Shown here in pieces: positions 14,424 through 24,571 of a stretch of 64,000 bases of DNA. The notes under the pieces were generated by a model. The model was not told where the DNA came from. It ran no database searches and was given only the letters and a program-made list of their open reading frames with translations. This DNA is from Planctomycetota bacterium. Its GTDB lineage: Bacteria > Planctomycetota > Planctomycetia > Pirellulales > PNKZ01. Position 1 is the stretch's first letter; every line of letters begins with the position of its first letter. The translations under genes were made by a program, and so were the position numbers. The stretch is taken from NCBI GenBank assembly GCA_018242585.1, contig JAFEBQ010000016.1, forward strand, positions 62,001 to 126,000, given 5' to 3'.

Positions 14424-16598
14424 CTAGGACTTCTTGGCCGATTTCTTGCCCTTCTTCGGCGTATCCGCCACCGCTTCGCCGCTCGGCTCGTCGCCGGCCT
14501 GGCCGACGATCAACACCTTGTCGCCGTAGTCTTCTTCGTCCGGCTCTTCGACCAAGCGGCCTTGATCGTCGTATTTGGCGTCGGCCTGGGCCGTCTTGCG
14601 TTTGGCGACTTTCAGCAGTTGGTCATAGAGCGATTGCTGATTGGCGCCGTTGATGTCGTGGACCGCCGACGCGACTTCCTTCAGGTAGCGCAGGAAGATC
14701 GAGCGCCGCTCGCCCTCCTGTTTGACTTTCTGCCGCTTGCGGACGTACATGGCCAGCTTGCGGCCGACGGCTTGCAGCCCCAATCGCAGATCGCGCTGGA
14801 TTTCCGGGTAGCTGGCGACCGCTTCCTTCGACTCGCTGGTGAACGGCACCCACACACTGGCCACATGGACCAGCACGGTCACCGGCCCACTGGGCAAGCC
14901 GCCGCGCGACTGGCTTAGTCCGTACGATCGCCAATTGGTCGACATGATCATTTGCGTAATCGCGCACGCGCCGGGCTGAAATTGCAACGGCACCCGATTG
15001 GCGTAGCGCAGCACGTTCATCGTCTGCCCTTCGTCCAGGTTCACGTTTCGCATCGCTTCGTGCAGTTGCTTGATCTCGGCCGGTTTGAGCTTTTGTGGCG
15101 AGACACGCGTGCCGAACTTCGCTTCTTCCAAGATCCTGTCGGCCGCCTCGGACCCAACGCCGCTGAAGCCGTTGATCAGAAACTGGCGCAGCGTTCGGGC
15201 GTCGGTCTCTTGCAGCAGCTCGGTCAGCGCTTCGAGCGTCACCTTGGCCGCCTGCGACGCGCCGCCGTAGGCTACCGCCACCTCGATCAGGAACGGGTTG
15301 CCGCGATAGACGGACGGCGGGCGAGTTTCGGCCGCGTAGAACTCGGCCGGCACCACGTGGTGCATCCCTTTCAGCAACAACGGCTCGCCGATCGGCGTAA
15401 TACAATCGGTTGACGGCGCGGGAATCTTGGTCGCTTGCAGCGCCTGGTACAACGACTCGGCGTCGTTGCGACCGATCCGGCCTGGGTTGGCCCGCGTGCT
15501 CAGCTTGGCCGCCTCGCACACCTTGGCCGCCGTGCCCGGGCTGACCCGCGAGAAGCTGCTGGTCAGGAACTGGGACAGGGTCGATCCCTTGGTCGCCTGC
15601 AACATCGTCACCAGGTTGCCCAGTTCGATGCCGTATGGATGCGGCAAAATTTCCTTGGGCTCGGGGGGCAATTCCTCGGCGGCCCGCGCGTAGTGATACT
15701 CCTCGCCGTCCGGATCCTTGTAATGGATCGTGACGTGAGGATTGGCGATGGCCGTTTGGGACAGATACTCGTCCACGCTGCCGCGCCCGCGCTGGTACTT
15801 GGCTTCGAGCTCGATGGTCACGCGCGTGCCGTGTGGCGTTTCGACCCATTCGATGCCGTACTTCTCCATTTGCTTCTGGCCGGCTTCGCCCGGTTCGACG
15901 TCGACCCCTTCGCCCCGGTTGTTCAGGATCTCGGGTTTGTTCTTCTTGGTGTCGATTTGAATCTCGAAGTAGTGCGCCGGTTTCTTGGCGCCGATGCGCG
16001 ACATCACCTTCACCGGCTTGCCGGTCGTCAGCACGCCGTACATGCCGGCGGCGCTGATGCCGATGCCTTGCTGGCCGCGGCTCATCCGCAAGCGGTGAAA
16101 CTTCGAACCGTACAGCAACTTGCCAAAGATGTTCGGAATCTGCTGCTTGACGATGCCGGGGCCGTTGTCCTGAACGCCGACCTTAAAGCGATTCGTGCCG
16201 GTCGCTTCGATATGCACCCAAATCTCGGGCAGGATGCCGGCCTCTTCACAGGCGTCGAGCGAGTTGTCGACGGCCTCTTTCACGGTGGTCAGCAGCGCTT
16301 TGCGCGGATTGTCAAAGCCGAGCAGATGCCGGTTCTTGGCGAAGAACTCGCTGACCGAGATATCGCGCTGGCCGGCGGCCATGGCCTCGGCCGTGGTGCG
16401 GCGCTTGGGCGCTTTGGCCGGCGCGGCGTGTCCATTGGCGACGTGCGACGCGGCGCCGTTCTGCTCGACGCTGGCGGCCGAGCCGTTGGCCTCGTGATCG
16501 CCGTCGCCGTTGGTCGACGGCGCGGCTAGCCGCGATTTCGAGGGTTGCTTGTCGGCCTTGGCCGCCTGTTTCTTCGACTTGAGCTTCGACACTATCAT
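14424..16598 (-). CDS. top6B: DNA topoisomerase VI subunit B (GHKL ATPase)
   Basis: ATPase/clamp subunit of topoisomerase VI, 724 residues (archaeal subunits about 530-620). A low-complexity Ala/Gly/Asn-rich extension (residues 1-80) precedes the GHKL domain. The N-box TTVKEAVDNSLDACEEAG (about 104-121), G1 box QDNGPGI and G2-like GQQGIGISAAGMYG are all present. H2TH and transducer regions follow. A lysine-rich tail (KKGKKSAKKS) ends the protein. It is the first gene of the top6B-nucleotidyltransferase-top6A run; its promoter should lie in 16599-16700. Confidence 0.95.
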   Translation of the reverse strand: MIVSKLKSKKQAAKADKQPSKSRLAAPSTNGDGDHEANGSAASVEQNGAASHVANGHAAPAKAPKRRTTAEAMAAGQRDISVSEFFAKNRHLLGFDNPRKALLTTVKEAVDNSLDACEEAGILPEIWVHIEATGTNRFKVGVQDNGPGIVKQQIPNIFGKLLYGSKFHRLRMSRGQQGIGISAAGMYGVLTTGKPVKVMSRIGAKKPAHYFEIQIDTKKNKPEILNNRGEGVDVEPGEAGQKQMEKYGIEWVETPHGTRVTIELEAKYQRGRGSVDEYLSQTAIANPHVTIHYKDPDGEEYHYARAAEELPPEPKEILPHPYGIELGNLVTMLQATKGSTLSQFLTSSFSRVSPGTAAKVCEAAKLSTRANPGRIGRNDAESLYQALQATKIPAPSTDCITPIGEPLLLKGMHHVVPAEFYAAETRPPSVYRGNPFLIEVAVAYGGASQAAKVTLEALTELLQETDARTLRQFLINGFSGVGSEAADRILEEAKFGTRVSPQKLKPAEIKQLHEAMRNVNLDEGQTMNVLRYANRVPLQFQPGACAITQMIMSTNWRSYGLSQSRGGLPSGPVTVLVHVASVWVPFTSESKEAVASYPEIQRDLRLGLQAVGRKLAMYVRKRQKVKQEGERRSIFLRYLKEVASAVHDINGANQQSLYDQLLKVAKRKTAQADAKYDDQGRLVEEPDEEDYGDKVLIVGQAGDEPSGEAVADTPKKGKKSAKKS

Positions 16599-18227: not shown

Positions 18228-20786
18228 TCAGCGTCGTTGACACCGGGCCAGCAGTTCATCGAACTGCCGCTTCAACTCGGGGCCGCCGAGTTCCGGATGC
18301 AAGAGCGCCGTCAACTGCACGATCTGCACCGCGCGCGCAGCGTTGCCCAGCCGTTCATGGGCCAGCGCCAGTCCGAGCTTGGCTCGGAACCAGCGTTCAC
18401 TTCCCGGCTGGGTTCCCTGTTCGAGTTGGCGATACTTAGCTAGCGCCGCTTGCCAATTCGCCGCATCGGTTCCGTCGAGGAGCGCTTGGGCGTAGTGACT
18501 CATCACTTCGGCGTCGCGCGGCAGTTGCTTGCTCAGTTGTTCAAACGCCGCCAGTCCGTCGGGTCGCCGGCCCAGGTCGAGAATGGCCTGTGCCCGGTTT
18601 AGCTCGAACCGCCGCCGCTGGTCGGGTGTAAGCTTTTCGAGCGTAGCCGCGGGTTGTTGCTCGATGAATCGCAGTGACAGGCCGGCCAACTGGGCTCGGG
18701 CCTCGGGCGTGGCGCCAGCGGCCAGGCGCGCCAGATTGTCCAGCAGCGCGAGCATCTGGCTGGTGTTTCCCGCGGCGGCTTGGGCGATGGTGGTGGCCGC
18801 TTCGTCGCGCCGTCCTTGACCGGCCAGGGCCAGCGCCAGCCAGGCGTTCATCGACTCACGCCAGGCGGCGCTCGTCTCGCCCGGAGCGGCCAGCGCGGCG
18901 CGAACGATCCGCTCGGCCCGCGCGAACTGCTGACCGGCGTACTGCAACCAGATTTCCGCCGCCCATTGAGCGGCGTCGCGTTGCAGCGAAGTCCACTGGG
19001 CCGGCAATTGCCCGCTGGGGCCGGTGATCGTCTGCTCGCAATACGCAGCCGCCTGGGCCGCCAGAGCTTCAGTCGATTGTCGCTCGCGCCGCAGTTGATC
19101 AAGCCATTCCAGGTAACACCTCACGGCCGCTTCGACGGCTGCGGTGTATTGATCGCTCTCGGGACTCACGCCGCGAAAGGCCGCAATGGCCGGCTCCCAC
19201 GCGCGCTGACGCTCGCGCAGCCGGCCGAGCCAGACGCGCGCCTGGTCGGCGGTCTCGCCGCGCGGCCAGCGTTGCAGATGCTCATCAAGCCAGGCCAGGT
19301 ATTGCTTGAATGCCGCCTCGTCGGCGGGTTTAAGCTGCTGGGCCATGAGATAAATCGCCTGCAAGTGCGCGGCGCTTGCTCGGGCGTTCTCGGGCGACGC
19401 CAATGCCAGGGTGTGCAGCCGCTGGGCCGCCTGGCTGAATTGTTGTTGCTGCTGTTCGATGGCCGCGGCGGCCAGCGTGGCGGCGAACATCGCGTCGGTC
19501 TGTTTGGTTTCACGCGCGCGCTGGACGACGACTTCGTACGTGGCGATCGCCTCGCCGAGCTTGCCGACCCGATAGTAGCTCTCGGCTGCCCGGGTCAATT
19601 GTTCCAGGTCGGCCGAGGCCGGTGCGCCGCTGACCGCTCGGGCCAGCGTCATCTCGGCCATCCGTCCCCAGTAAGCAGTCTGTTGCTCTTCGATCCGGCG
19701 GGCCACCGCGGCGGCTTGCTGCTGTCGGCGCTCGGCCTCGGGAGCGTGATTCGCTTGCCGGTCAGCTTGTGCGGCCGCAAGGTACACCGCGAGAATTGAC
19801 ATGTCGAGTTCCGCCGGTCGCACGGCTGGCAGAGCTTGCTCGAGGGCGTCGGCTTCGCGCAGCGCGGCGTCAAGCTGTTTTTGAGCCAGGAGTAATTGCA
19901 GCCGTTCGGCGCGTAGGAGCAGCGCTACGTCGGCGGGGGGCTGCTTGCGCTGGAGTTCCGCCAGTAGTCGATCGGCGCTCGTCCAATCGTTCAACTCGCG
20001 CAGCGTTGCCACCCGGGCCACCTGCACTTGCCAATCGAGCGCGTCGTCGAGCGCCGGGATCGCCCCCAGCCGTTCGTACGCCTGTTGCATTGACGACAGC
20101 CGATCGGCGCTATCGGCCGGGTAGCAGAGCCCTTGCTCCATCAGGGCCAGCGACTGCTGATACGTGACGTTCCGCGTCAGCGCCAGCAATTGCGGCTCGC
20201 CAAGGGAATCTTCCGCCGTGGCGGCCCGACCGACGCGCTGACGCTGCAACGTATCGACCGTGGCCGCGGCATGAGCGAGTTGCTCGATCGCCTGTCGCAA
20301 ATGGAGCTTCGCCTGCTCTTGGACACCAGTTGAGTCGAGCGACAAGGGGGCCTCGGCGCGCAGTTGCCTGCCGCGACTTAACGCGATCAAGCCACGCTGT
20401 ACTTGAGTCAGCACCACGTCGCTCGGCGAGGGGTTTTGTTTCGCCACCGAGTCGAGTGCCGCAATCGCCCGCTGCCAGAGTTGCTCGCGGGCCTCGGGGG
20501 CGCTGTTGAGGGCCTGGTCGGCGCAGCTCCGCGCCATTTCCAGAGTGAACCAGACACGCCGGGCCGGCGACAGGCCCGAGCGATCGAGTTGGCGCTGGCA
20601 ATATCGCTCGGCCAACTCATACAGTTGACGCTCACGCAAGCCCGCCAGGAATCGCTCATCTTGGGGGCTGGCAACGACGTCACCGACTAACAGAAACCAA
20701 CACGCGACGACGTACAGCATCCACAGCGCGCGCAAGTTGCGACATTCGGGGAGCCGTCTCAGCGGTATGGCAAGCGTGCAGCGCAT
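18228..20786 (-). CDS. Large exported TPR-type protein (last gene of ExbBD operon)
   Basis: 852 residues with an N-terminal hydrophobic segment (about 20-40, LWMLYVVACWFLLVGDVVAS) that should export or anchor it. The rest is Leu/Ala/Gln-rich helical pairs spaced as tetratricopeptide-like repeats throughout, for example near residues 360-470 and 740-845 (AALAKYRQLEQG, LGLALAHERLGN). Such solenoids bind proteins. It follows the second ExbD gene by 22 bp, on the same strand, as the end of the vWA-TPR-ExbB-ExbD-ExbD-TPR run. A periplasmic scaffold partner of the ExbBD motor is a reasonable inference. The first ATG is used; its 20 residues before the hydrophobic segment are basic. Confidence 0.75.
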   Translation of the reverse strand: MRCTLAIPLRRLPECRNLRALWMLYVVACWFLLVGDVVASPQDERFLAGLRERQLYELAERYCQRQLDRSGLSPARRVWFTLEMARSCADQALNSAPEAREQLWQRAIAALDSVAKQNPSPSDVVLTQVQRGLIALSRGRQLRAEAPLSLDSTGVQEQAKLHLRQAIEQLAHAAATVDTLQRQRVGRAATAEDSLGEPQLLALTRNVTYQQSLALMEQGLCYPADSADRLSSMQQAYERLGAIPALDDALDWQVQVARVATLRELNDWTSADRLLAELQRKQPPADVALLLRAERLQLLLAQKQLDAALREADALEQALPAVRPAELDMSILAVYLAAAQADRQANHAPEAERRQQQAAAVARRIEEQQTAYWGRMAEMTLARAVSGAPASADLEQLTRAAESYYRVGKLGEAIATYEVVVQRARETKQTDAMFAATLAAAAIEQQQQQFSQAAQRLHTLALASPENARASAAHLQAIYLMAQQLKPADEAAFKQYLAWLDEHLQRWPRGETADQARVWLGRLRERQRAWEPAIAAFRGVSPESDQYTAAVEAAVRCYLEWLDQLRRERQSTEALAAQAAAYCEQTITGPSGQLPAQWTSLQRDAAQWAAEIWLQYAGQQFARAERIVRAALAAPGETSAAWRESMNAWLALALAGQGRRDEAATTIAQAAAGNTSQMLALLDNLARLAAGATPEARAQLAGLSLRFIEQQPAATLEKLTPDQRRRFELNRAQAILDLGRRPDGLAAFEQLSKQLPRDAEVMSHYAQALLDGTDAANWQAALAKYRQLEQGTQPGSERWFRAKLGLALAHERLGNAARAVQIVQLTALLHPELGGPELKRQFDELLARCQRR

Positions 20787-20808
20787 TCGTGGAACAATCG
20801 GGCCGATC

Positions 20809-21291
20809 TTAAGAACCCGCCGGTGGCTTCGGCGGCGCGGGATTCACCGGCGTGTGAGCCGCGAACTGAATTTTCTCAAAGCCGATCACGCGGCACATGT
20901 CGTAGGTGTCGATCACATCGCCCAGCGGCACGTCGGGCTGGCTGTCGAGAATCACCGGCAGGTCGGCGCGCAGTTGGGCCAGTTGCCCCAGCACGGCGCG
21001 CAGCTCGGGCAAGGTGGCAAAGTTCCGCGAGCTGAGCGACCAGCGCGTCTTGGCCCCTTCGCGCTCGATACGAATGATCACGTCTTCCAACTCGGCCAAG
21101 GCGGGATCGAGCGCGGTCGCGCCGGCACCCGCCCCCGGCGCGCGCAGATTGGTCGGTAGGACTTCTTCCAACGCCTGAAAGCTGACCGTGCAGACGAAAA
21201 AGATCAACAACTGAAACACGACGTCGATCATCGGCGTCATGTTCGTGTCCATCCGACCGCGATTGGCCTCGCTATAGCTGGGCACACGCAT
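20809..21291 (-). CDS. ExbD/TolR family biopolymer transport protein (second copy)
   Basis: 160-residue bitopic inner-membrane protein of the proton-driven Exb/Tol/Mot class. The transmembrane helix (about 18-40) contains the essential acidic residue Asp23 in MTPMIDVVFQLLIFF. A periplasmic domain with the ExbD beta/alpha pattern (LPVILDSQPDVPLGDVIDTYD) follows. Its ATG overlaps the stop of the first ExbD gene by one base (TGATG). It ends in a Pro-rich tail. Confidence 0.92.
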   Translation of the reverse strand: MRVPSYSEANRGRMDTNMTPMIDVVFQLLIFFVCTVSFQALEEVLPTNLRAPGAGAGATALDPALAELEDVIIRIEREGAKTRWSLSSRNFATLPELRAVLGQLAQLRADLPVILDSQPDVPLGDVIDTYDMCRVIGFEKIQFAAHTPVNPAPPKPPAGS

Positions 21292-21734
21292 CAGCCGCTC
21301 CCGTCGCGATGCAACACGGCGAAGGTGACCTTCCAGATGCCGCCGCGGGCGCAGGCCAGCAAGATCGGCTCGACGGCGCGATACGGCGCGGCGCGGTGGC
21401 AGCGAATCCGCACTTCGACTTCCTGGCCTGGGTGCTCGGCATGCCGGCTTTCAAAGCCGATGCGGCGTTCCAACTCGGCCGGGTCGACCGGCTGGCCGGC
21501 CAACATCAACTGTCCGTCGTCGAGGACGTTGATCGTTACGCGCCGCGCCGTCGATTCTTCGTCGTCGGGCTTGTGACCGCTGGCGGCTTTGGGCAGCTCC
21601 AGCTCGAGCTGCGTCTCTTGGTGAGCCAGGTGACCCGAGACGAGGAAGAAAATAATCAGCAAGAACGTGACGTCGATCATCGGCGTCATGTTGAATTCCA
21701 GGCTCGGTCGCGATTTGGCGTGAGGGACGAACAT
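21291..21734 (-). CDS. ExbD/TolR family biopolymer transport protein (first copy)
   Basis: 147 residues. One transmembrane helix after a short cytoplasmic head, with the proton-relay Asp21 in NMTPMIDVTFLLIIFF. The periplasmic part has the ExbD fold pattern (RRVTINVLDDGQLMLAGQPV) ending with an arginine/cysteine-containing segment (RIRCHRAAPYRAVEP). It starts 2 bp after the ExbB gene and overlaps the next ExbD by one base. Two non-identical ExbD subunits next to one ExbB suggests a hetero-oligomeric stator complex. Confidence 0.92.
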   Translation of the reverse strand: MFVPHAKSRPSLEFNMTPMIDVTFLLIIFFLVSGHLAHQETQLELELPKAASGHKPDDEESTARRVTINVLDDGQLMLAGQPVDPAELERRIGFESRHAEHPGQEVEVRIRCHRAAPYRAVEPILLACARGGIWKVTFAVLHRDGSG

Positions 21735-21736
21735 GA

Positions 21737-22507
21737 CTAACGTCCCTCCACCGGCGGGGCGACGGGGGCCGTGCGGCGCGGGGCCGGCCTGGGGGCGCGC
21801 AGCGGCGCGAGCGTCTGTTGAGCGGTCGACGCCAGTTGTCCGAGCATGTTTTCAACGCGGCTGCGAAACATGGCGAACAAGCCGAGCGCGGGAATGGCGA
21901 CGACCAGCCCTTCGACCGTAGTGATCAGGGCTTTGTAGATACCCTCGGCCAGATCGGCGGCGCGCGCGGCTCCTTGGGTGGTCGCGACCACGCGGAAGGC
22001 GAACACCATCCCGACCACCGTCCCCAGCAGACCGAGCATTGGCGCGATGTTGCCGATGACCGACAGGTATTCGATGCGGCGATAGAGCTTGCCGGCCTGC
22101 TCGGCAAGGGCGTCTTCCATTCCTTTCTCGATGGCCGGCCAACCTTCGTCGGCGTGGCGCAGGCCCGCTTCCAGCACGATGGCCAGGCACGATCGATCGT
22201 TGTGACAGACTTGCAGCGCCTCGGCGATCTGGCCTTGCTGGGCCAACTGCCAGACCTGTTCAACCAGCGCGCGGGGCATGAGGACCGGTTGCCGTAGCGT
22301 GCGCAGGTAGTCGATGGCCAGGCCGACGGCGACGATCGACAACAGAATGATCACCGCGCCGACGCTGCCGCCGGCCAGGATGATGCCGCTGAACGAGTTG
22401 ACGTCATCCTCGACTTGGCGCTGAGCCTCGGGGGTTTGCGCGGCCAGGGGCGCAGCCAGCGCCAGCCAGCCGATCAACGTCAGCGCCGCGTAACGAATGG
22501 TGTGCAA
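21737..22507 (-). CDS. ExbB/TolQ/MotA-type proton channel protein
   Basis: 256 residues: signal-like N-terminus (about 1-23), then three transmembrane helices (about 44-65, 150-172 and 190-215) with the family hallmark NIAPMLGLLGTVVGMVFAF and the C-terminal TTVEGLVVAIPALGLFAMFR. It forms the pentameric motor core that uses proton flow to move ExbD. The start is TTG at 22507, supported by AAAGGAG 7 nt upstream; an ATG just upstream is out of frame. A Pro/Arg-rich tail follows the last helix. Third gene of the operon, after the TPR protein by 19 bp. Confidence 0.92.
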   Translation of the reverse strand: MHTIRYAALTLIGWLALAAPLAAQTPEAQRQVEDDVNSFSGIILAGGSVGAVIILLSIVAVGLAIDYLRTLRQPVLMPRALVEQVWQLAQQGQIAEALQVCHNDRSCLAIVLEAGLRHADEGWPAIEKGMEDALAEQAGKLYRRIEYLSVIGNIAPMLGLLGTVVGMVFAFRVVATTQGAARAADLAEGIYKALITTVEGLVVAIPALGLFAMFRSRVENMLGQLASTAQQTLAPLRAPRPAPRRTAPVAPPVEGR

Positions 22508-22526
22508 GCCATCACTCCTTTGATGT

Positions 22527-23582
22527 TCATTTGGTCGCGGCCGGCGCGGCGCTTAGCTCTCGCAAACGCTCCTGCGCGGCCGACAGGTTCGATGATTCGG
22601 GATAGTTGGCAATCAGTTCGCGATAAAGCCGGGCGGCGTCGACGGGTTTGCCCAGTTTTTCCAGCGCCTGGCCGGCCAGCCAGAGACTCTCGCTGGCCAG
22701 CGGCCGGTCGTCGCTGTTGACGATCGCCACACGTAGTAGCGCGATGGCGCCCGCCTCGGGTTGATCGCGCTGGACCAGTGCGCGCCCCAGGGCGAACTCG
22801 GGACCGGCGCGCAGCGACTCGGGAAACCTTTCCACGCGCTCGGCCCAGGCGTTGAGCGTCACTGATGTGGCCGTTGGAAACGTCACACGCCACGATTGAG
22901 CCTCGGCCAGCATGGCCACACGCTCGTCCTTGCTGAATGCTAGGGTACGTAGCAAGGTCAGCGCGTTGGCCTGGTTCGACGTGGTCAAAAGATAACTCGT
23001 CCCCAACAGTTGCGCCAGGGGCGAATCGCTGCGGCCGGCCCACTCGCGAGCCTTTTGCTCCAGGTCGGCTGGCACGCTTTGCGGACGCCACGCCAGCGGG
23101 ATGGTGTCGAAGTAGGGGGTGTTCGGATCGTCCTTGGCCAGTGTGAGGAAGTAATCTCCCGCGATGGCCGCGCGATCGAGCCGCGCGTAGCAGACGACCA
23201 GCCGCGACAAGATCAGCCGGCGGACCCAGCGCCGTGTTTCACGGTCGGGCTTCAAGGCGTCGTTGTACTTCTGCACGGCGGCCGCGTATTGCCGGGCGGC
23301 TAGCAGTTCGTCCCCTTGGCGGTGCTCGGCCGTCCGCGCGGTCTGAATCTCGATCACCTGTCGACCGGGGAACTTCTGCTGCGAGCCGCCGGGAAGCTGG
23401 ATCGAAAGCTCCGCGCCGGTGTAATCGAGCACGGTGCCGGTCATCCGCACTCGCCCGTCAGGCTTCGATGCCGATGACAACGTGACGATGTCCTCGCCGC
23501 GCAGCGGCGCGACGCCGACGAATACGACGACCAGCGCCACTCGAACGAGCCGACTCGTGTTGTGCCGATCCGTGTATCTCAT
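22527..23582 (-). CDS. Exported TPR-type protein (second gene of ExbBD operon)
   Basis: 351 residues from the ATG at 23582, giving MRYTDRHNTSRLVRVALVVVFVGVAP, a signal peptide. A short beta-rich N-terminal region (MTGTVLDYTGAELSIQLPGG, residues about 45-75) is followed by helical repeats. The clearest TPR motifs are at the C-terminus (LWLAGQALEKLGKPVDAARLYRELIANYPES). The longer open frame to 23699 lies inside the upstream vWA gene. Its start overlaps the vWA stop by 4 nt (ATGA). Probably a periplasmic adaptor of the ExbBD system. Confidence 0.8.
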   Translation of the reverse strand: MRYTDRHNTSRLVRVALVVVFVGVAPLRGEDIVTLSSASKPDGRVRMTGTVLDYTGAELSIQLPGGSQQKFPGRQVIEIQTARTAEHRQGDELLAARQYAAAVQKYNDALKPDRETRRWVRRLILSRLVVCYARLDRAAIAGDYFLTLAKDDPNTPYFDTIPLAWRPQSVPADLEQKAREWAGRSDSPLAQLLGTSYLLTTSNQANALTLLRTLAFSKDERVAMLAEAQSWRVTFPTATSVTLNAWAERVERFPESLRAGPEFALGRALVQRDQPEAGAIALLRVAIVNSDDRPLASESLWLAGQALEKLGKPVDAARLYRELIANYPESSNLSAAQERLRELSAAPAATK

Positions 23583-24571
23583 GGGCGCAATTGCCGCGTG
23601 ATGTCGATGTACAGGTATTGCCCGTGGTTCTCGCGGGCTAGGACTTGCAGGAAGTTTTCGCTCCCTGCCGGGGCCGGGCCGACGGCGAACATGATGCAAT
23701 TGATCGAGGCCCGCTGGTTGGCTCGGCGGACGCGCTGCATCTGCGGGGGGCTGAGCCCTGGCTGGTCGGCATCGGTCAGGAAGAAGATCACGTCGGCGTC
23801 CAGGCGCAGGGCCATCATCAGCGCGTCGTAATGGTTGGTGCCGCCGTCGGCGACCATGCCGCTGACAAACTGATGAGCCGCCCGCTTGTTGGCGTCGGTG
23901 GCGAACGTCAAACGCCCTTGCAGACCTTGCGGGTTAAAGATCGTGGGCCGCTCGTTGTAGAAGATGATCTGGAAGCTGTGCTCGGGGCCCAGACTGTCGA
24001 GGCTGGCTAAGAGTTCTCCCTTGGCCGAGCGGAGCGCGCTGTTCCCTTCGCCCCCCATGCTGGCCGAACGATCGAAGACATAGACGAACCGCTGTCCCTC
24101 GCCGACCAGGCCGTAAACTTTGGTCCGGGCAAAGTTCCCTTGCTTCGAGCTGCCCGACGGCGCCCCTTGGGTCAGACCCGTCGCCGAGGGGGCCGCCTGG
24201 CCGGTGGCCGCGCCGGGGCCGATGGTATTGCGCTGCTTGGGCAACGCCTCGCTCAAGTCGAGCGGTGGCCGATCGGCGGCAGCAGTGGCCAGCGGGTTGT
24301 TTTGGGCGACGGCGTCGCTGGGCTGGTCCGCGGTCGGGGCGTCGAGCGGGGCCGATTCGTATTGCAACTCGCCCGACGGCGCCACATGGGCCAGCACCAC
24401 GCCGACGTCGCGGCCGGGTTCGGTGGCCGCCCCGCGCTGCTCGGGGGTCAGCAGCAAGCCCATCGTGGTGAACAGCCCGGCATGAAACACCAACGACAGC
24501 GCCCAGGACGGAACGCGCGCAGCCCAGCCGACGCGCGGTTCGTCGTTCGTCGTTTCGGCGTGCTGGGACAT
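23579..24571 (-). CDS. von Willebrand factor A domain protein with N-terminal membrane anchor
   Basis: 330 residues. A transmembrane segment (about 22-42, PSWALSLVFHAGLFTTMGLLL) is followed by a disordered Ala/Pro-rich stretch (to about 140) and a VWA domain. The metal-ion adhesion site is intact: D167-x-S169-x-S171 (DRSASMGGEG), with a later Thr in GGTNHYDALMMA and DVIFFLTDAD. The first 60 residues resemble the TonB-like anchors seen in planctomycete VWA proteins. It heads the operon and overlaps the TPR gene by 4 nt. It would bind a partner in the periplasm in a metal-dependent way (inference). Confidence 0.88.
   Translation of the reverse strand: MSQHAETTNDEPRVGWAARVPSWALSLVFHAGLFTTMGLLLTPEQRGAATEPGRDVGVVLAHVAPSGELQYESAPLDAPTADQPSDAVAQNNPLATAAADRPPLDLSEALPKQRNTIGPGAATGQAAPSATGLTQGAPSGSSKQGNFARTKVYGLVGEGQRFVYVFDRSASMGGEGNSALRSAKGELLASLDSLGPEHSFQIIFYNERPTIFNPQGLQGRLTFATDANKRAAHQFVSGMVADGGTNHYDALMMALRLDADVIFFLTDADQPGLSPPQMQRVRRANQRASINCIMFAVGPAPAGSENFLQVLARENHGQYLYIDITRQLRP

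Follow-up and report, generated by a model that had tools for sequence, protein, structure and literature searches.

The six genes read from 24571 to 18228 on the minus strand of the window, the whole stretch of 64,000 nucleotides that was analysed, are likely to encode a Ton/Tol-type force machine acting across the envelope, in which a vWA head replaces the C-terminal domain of TonB or TolA. In such a machine an inner-membrane proton motor probably pulls a periplasmic vWA binding domain by way of a TonB-like tether. Comparison of sequences supports the motor chemistry, the tether and the head; the binding, the pull, the ligand and the roles of the TPR proteins are inferred. If the reading is true, Ton/Tol force transmission has acquired an unrelated binding head in a group whose tested genomes yielded no TolB. 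Residues S26 and H30, the MIDAS residues and the two ExbD aspartates would then be handles on the planctomycete use of proton-driven force.

The host genome (5.57 Mb in 56 contigs, 99.9% complete) groups with the Pirellulales. The genes are co-directional and encode, in order, a vWA protein, TPR1, an ExbB/TolQ-like subunit, ExbD1, ExbD2 and TPR2 (Table 1). An earlier note, made from the letters of the DNA, had placed six such genes at 18228-24571; all are present and were confirmed by Pfam, TPR2 weakly. It had also described their junctions as overlaps of 1-4 nt, which holds for vWA/TPR1 (4 nt) and ExbD1/ExbD2 (1 nt). The other three junctions are gaps of 19 nt (TPR1-ExbB), 2 nt (ExbB-ExbD1) and 22 nt (ExbD2-TPR2). 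The probable start codon of ExbB is TTG, preceded at 7 nt by an AAGGAG site, and about 130 nt separate the operon from an upstream cardiolipin-synthase-like gene. The AlphaFold model of TPR1 has a mean pLDDT of 92 and its fold search returned generic TPR solenoids only. Orthologues of TPR2, at 29-39% identity, occupy the same position in many loci.

Table 1. Genes, motifs and protein regions of the operon (positions are those of the window)
Feature	Position	Strand	Remarks
vWA force-transducer candidate	23579..24571	-	330 aa; Pfam VWA_3 4.3e-7
vWA protein regions			cytoplasmic N-terminus; TM helix 22-40; disordered linker 41-146; vWA domain 147-325
SxxxH motif, putative motor-binding	24482..24496	-	SLVFH, S26-H30, in the vWA TM helix
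MIDAS DxSxS of the vWA domain	24059..24073	-	D167-S169-S171; invariant alignment columns
TPR1	22527..23582	-	exported (predicted); Pfam TPR_6 1.6e-6; order conserved among loci
TPR1 regions			signal peptide; small beta domain (residues 31-80); TPR helices after it
ExbB/TolQ-like motor subunit	21737..22507	-	Pfam MotA_ExbB 1.9e-26; N-terminal signal-like extension; pentamer expected
ExbD1/TolR-like subunit	21291..21734	-	Pfam ExbD 9.9e-21; Asp within MTPMIDV
ExbD2/TolR-like subunit	20809..21291	-	other subfamily than ExbD1; Pfam ExbD 1.1e-17; Asp within MTPMIDV
TPR2	18228..20786	-	exported (predicted) 852-aa helical-repeat protein; Pfam TPR_6 weak, E 0.009

By sequence and model, the plan of the vWA protein is like that of TonB and TolA: a single predicted TM helix is joined to a vWA head by some 100 aa of disordered linker. 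The AlphaFold model has a helix at residues 22-40, low confidence over 41-146 and a vWA fold at 147-325, mostly above 90 pLDDT, and many vWA domains were among the best PDB matches of the modelled protein. In an alignment of 22 sequences, 40-48% identical to the window protein, the sole invariant positions of the TM helix are W23, S26 and H30. Position 37 is leucine in 19 of the 22 and position 40 is serine or threonine in 14; the window protein itself has M37 and L40. The spacing of a serine, a histidine 4 residues on and a leucine 7 further is that of TonB, and it matches the motor-binding motif of TonB and TolA, SHLS. In E. coli TonB the motif residues are S16, H20 and L27. A TonB_C protein of the host genome (contig 10, L137) has an identical SLVFH, and the strict form WxxSxxxH was found in 71 of 80 vWA proteins, the exceptions being truncated or miscalled starts, SxxxH without the tryptophan, or members of a secreted class. 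After the helix, G47 is invariant and a semi-conserved R-x-V-x-(I/L/V)-V-L follows at 54-60; a motor-box beta-strand was not visible in the single-chain model. The MIDAS residues D167, S169, S171, T245 and D267 are present in the window protein and invariant in the 22 homologues, in agreement with the membrane-anchored VWA with intact MIDAS that had been described before. A degenerate vWA protein is ruled out by the invariance of the MIDAS and of the TM motif.

The pore threonines of ExbB, T163 and T197, are invariant among homologues, and the motif aspartate (MTPMID), predicted to bind protons, was found by pattern in 42 of 42 ExbD2 and 41 of 46 ExbD1 proteins; inspection by eye finds the aspartate in four of the remaining five ExbD1, the fifth being a frame-fused call. 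ExbD1 precedes ExbD2 in 42 of 42 loci. The two belong to different subfamilies, both with the aspartate, and the earlier recognition of two different ExbD subunits was correct.

Operons of this kind are already known and are not specific to planctomycetes, since a "vWA force transducer" family was predicted in print in 2025, beside TPR, tolQ and two tolR genes (Mol Biol Evol; PMC12204202). The range that paper gives for it, Proteobacteria, Planctomycetes, Verrucomicrobia, Bacteroidetes and Rhodothermaeota, contradicts the earlier suggestion of a planctomycete-specific machine. The function of the family is given there as unknown, and no characterised function was found for it in the titles and abstracts of later literature. 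According to the same paper, which also describes the SHLS motif, structure predictions put the TM helix of the family on the motor, and the vWA gene is often downstream of one TPR gene. The window operon has the architecture, TM motif and neighbours of the family as set out there: an N-terminal TM helix with an SHLS-type motif, a disordered linker of about 100 residues, a C-terminal vWA domain, and adjacent TPR, tolQ-like and two tolR-like genes. It departs from that description in starting with vWA and in having a second, large TPR gene at its end. New here are the persistence of vWA-TPR after loss of the motor, the split of tethered and secreted vWA forms by motor, and SxxxH proteins beside other motors; for motor loss with vWA-TPR retained and for secreted vWA forms, no description was found in that paper's passages on the family. 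A second family of that paper, TPH-vWA/TolQ, resembles the operon in its TolQ-like motor and in a vWA domain anchored by a TM helix, and is described as having no ExbD/TolR genes and no SHLS motif. Membership in it is ruled out by the two ExbD genes and the SxxxH motif of the operon.

Homologues of the vWA protein were found in 93 of the 97 relatives searched. Eighty loci with flanks, from named genomes, were used for comparison, and gene content was followed by profile searches. Of these, 54 extend at least 5.5 kb past the vWA gene; the order vWA-TPR1-ExbB-ExbD1-ExbD2-TPR2 is kept in 29 and is short of TPR1 only in 3 more, so the operon is not a chance arrangement. Outside the order Pirellulales, another family of the class has vWA-TPR1-ExbB-ExbD1-ExbD2 (L173-L176), and vWA-motor operons occur in further families of the phylum (e.g. 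L179, L180, L181, L183 and L190). Judged by these searches, the six-gene order, whose conservation the earlier note had proposed to check, is conserved across the Pirellulales, with variants phylum-wide. Next to the motor, genes for vWA and TPR proteins are retained, the point on which that note had made its proposal depend. Together with the TonB/TolA-type TM motif, this points to the VWA and TPR proteins as partners of the motor, as it had suggested. One genome (G087) has both a window-type operon and a second, divergent vWA-TPR-ExbB-ExbD-ExbD-TPR operon (L139:6168-12848).

A cognate ExbB, taken as a profile score of at least about 260 bits (other motor types reach at most about 237), is missing in roughly half of the 97 relatives. 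In the drafts G001 and G005 it was missed through contig ends; G018, G054 and G078, of 96-100% completeness, are without it, and in other genomes the vWA and TPR genes are adjacent and the cognate ExbB is missing. In L055 a large unrelated gene lies between TPR1 and TPR2, at the usual position of the motor, and in L059 TPR1 is apparently fused to TPR2. The intervening gene of L055 (12122-15280) encodes 1052 aa and is restriction-enzyme-like by eye. As far as gene content tells, genomes that lost the cognate motor still carry the vWA-TPR unit. Where the genome has a cognate motor, all 53 vWA proteins have a tether with SxxxH. Where it was not found, 14 of 31 are tethered, retaining SxxxH; the remaining 17 are short, lack SxxxH, have hardly any linker and begin with a signal-peptide-like segment, and are called secreted on these features. 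Given those 14 tethered proteins, the pairing of vWA and motor is not obligatory. The association of tether with motor has a Fisher p of 1e-9 with genomes treated as independent, which they are not. On the vWA-domain tree the secreted state accounts for about 4 changes and motor loss for about 10; independent pairs go in the expected direction and are too few for significance, the motor-tether link representing few independent events. These natural losses, in which the motor is gone and the tether is kept or also gone, make that link testable comparatively.

The same losses bear on another reading, in which vWA and TPR make up a self-contained envelope assembly or adhesion complex, perhaps in the manner of BatA/BatB-type vWA-TPR sets, and the adjacent motor serves a different transducer, such as a TonB encoded elsewhere. 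Several lineages keep vWA and TPR without motor genes and secreted vWA forms without a tether exist, as this reading would expect; moreover, neither of the two TonB_C genes of the host has an ExbD on its contig, and whichever motor serves them must therefore act in trans. However, it leaves unexplained why SxxxH is kept in tethered vWA proteins after the motor left the operon, unless a motor is still bound, and an untethered vWA protein was found in no motor-bearing genome. We hold such a separate complex to be quite improbable.

In the preferred reading of the operon as a force machine, five ExbB subunits would assemble with one ExbD1 and one ExbD2 into a 5:1:1 motor, where proton flow would move the ExbD pair. 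The vWA helix would dock laterally on the motor in the manner of TonB and the linker would transmit the pull to the vWA head, which may grip a periplasmic, wall or outer-membrane ligand through the MIDAS metal site. TPR1 and TPR2 could scaffold the head or its client. The client would be encoded elsewhere, and the vWA-TPR unit could probably be driven by another motor in the cell as well.

Clustering of the flanking ORFs of the 80 loci revealed no client gene near the operon. The only recurrent neighbours are def, fmt, miaB, a glnE-like gene and topoisomerase VI genes (named by eye and Pfam), and these flanks hold no conserved outer-membrane client, Pal-like client or receptor gene. With no client gene conserved nearby, we make no firm choice among outer-membrane maintenance, attachment, uptake and motility. 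In the window, a gene for the topoisomerase VI B subunit lies at 14424-16598 on the minus strand; topoisomerase VI genes recur downstream of the operon in other loci.

The operon is like TonB-ExbB-ExbD and TolA-TolQ-TolR in its motor subunits, SxxxH helix and flexible linker, and unlike them in its vWA head, its two different ExbDs and the lack of TolB/Pal or a receptor nearby. It encodes no TonB, TolA, TolB or Pal, as had been stated earlier, and two TonB_C proteins and two Plug receptors are encoded elsewhere in the host genome. A canonical Ton system is ruled out by the absence of a TonB_C/TolA C-terminal domain, the window vWA protein matching VWA models alone in Pfam, and canonical Tol-Pal by the lack of TolB_N, of which a search with positive controls found none in 18 genomes. 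That absence would suit a replacement of Tol-Pal that holds the outer membrane at division, a function compatible with the force machine in which vWA would correspond to TolA and TPR1 to CpoB. The closest NCBIfam models, each scoring below cut-off, point the same way: ExbB is nearest to TolQ (1.9e-21), ExbD1 to TolR and TPR1 to YbgF/CpoB. Nonetheless, about half of the 97 relatives are without the cognate motor and some without any tethered vWA, which is not likely for an essential division machine, and the neighbourhood holds no Pal-like client; we consider this function unlikely. The operon genes are not mentioned in the main text of essential-gene studies of Planctopirus and Verrucomicrobium.

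Surface attachment or motility, or macromolecule uptake, would also be compatible with a force machine. The AglRQS gliding motor of Myxococcus is likewise built of one TolQ-like and two TolR-like subunits, and macromolecule uptake occurs in some planctomycetes. To our knowledge, the AglRQS operon has no vWA transducer with SxxxH; a vWA adhesin participates in Myxococcus gliding, according to PMC12204202. Unlike AglRQS, the vWA operon has no gliding genes beside it among the recurrent flanking genes of the 80 loci, nor is a receptor gene conserved in these flanks, and no single motility or uptake trait is known to be common to the lineages that bear the operon. Functions of this group seem to us somewhat unlikely.

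A second motor type, TPR2'-TPR1'-ExbB-ExbD-ExbD, was found on contig 25 of the host and in relatives, both those that have the cognate motor and those that do not. Since it occurs in both groups and no SxxxH protein was seen beside it, we infer that it is a candidate trans driver of tethered vWA proteins. The host copy lies at L012:3494-10373, and the same operon was observed in other Pirellulales (L123, L125, L126, L130, L132 and L142). Most other motors of the host genome adjoin further SxxxH proteins, two of which have alpha-toroid heads. It may be, and we offer this tentatively, that Planctomycetes lacking TolB run a set of interchangeable Ton-like transducers, with vWA-TPR on more than one motor, including the widespread TPR-TPR-ExbB-ExbD-ExbD, and an unreported alpha-toroid class, which jointly do envelope mechanics of the Tol-Pal type.

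The alpha-toroid proteins join an SxxxH TM helix to a squalene-hopene-cyclase-like alpha-toroid (PF13243, weak to moderate scores) beside other ExbB-ExbD motors, at L009:6412-9549 (host contig 41), L011:7416-9407 (host contig 12), L128:4517-6592 and L141:6326-7984. They are possibly a second class of Ton-like transducer, of which a literature search found no report. On host contig 9 (L010:5049-10143), ExbB and two long ExbD proteins come after two SxxxH-helix proteins of about 300 aa that match nothing in Pfam, and are themselves followed by a 1482-aa protein.
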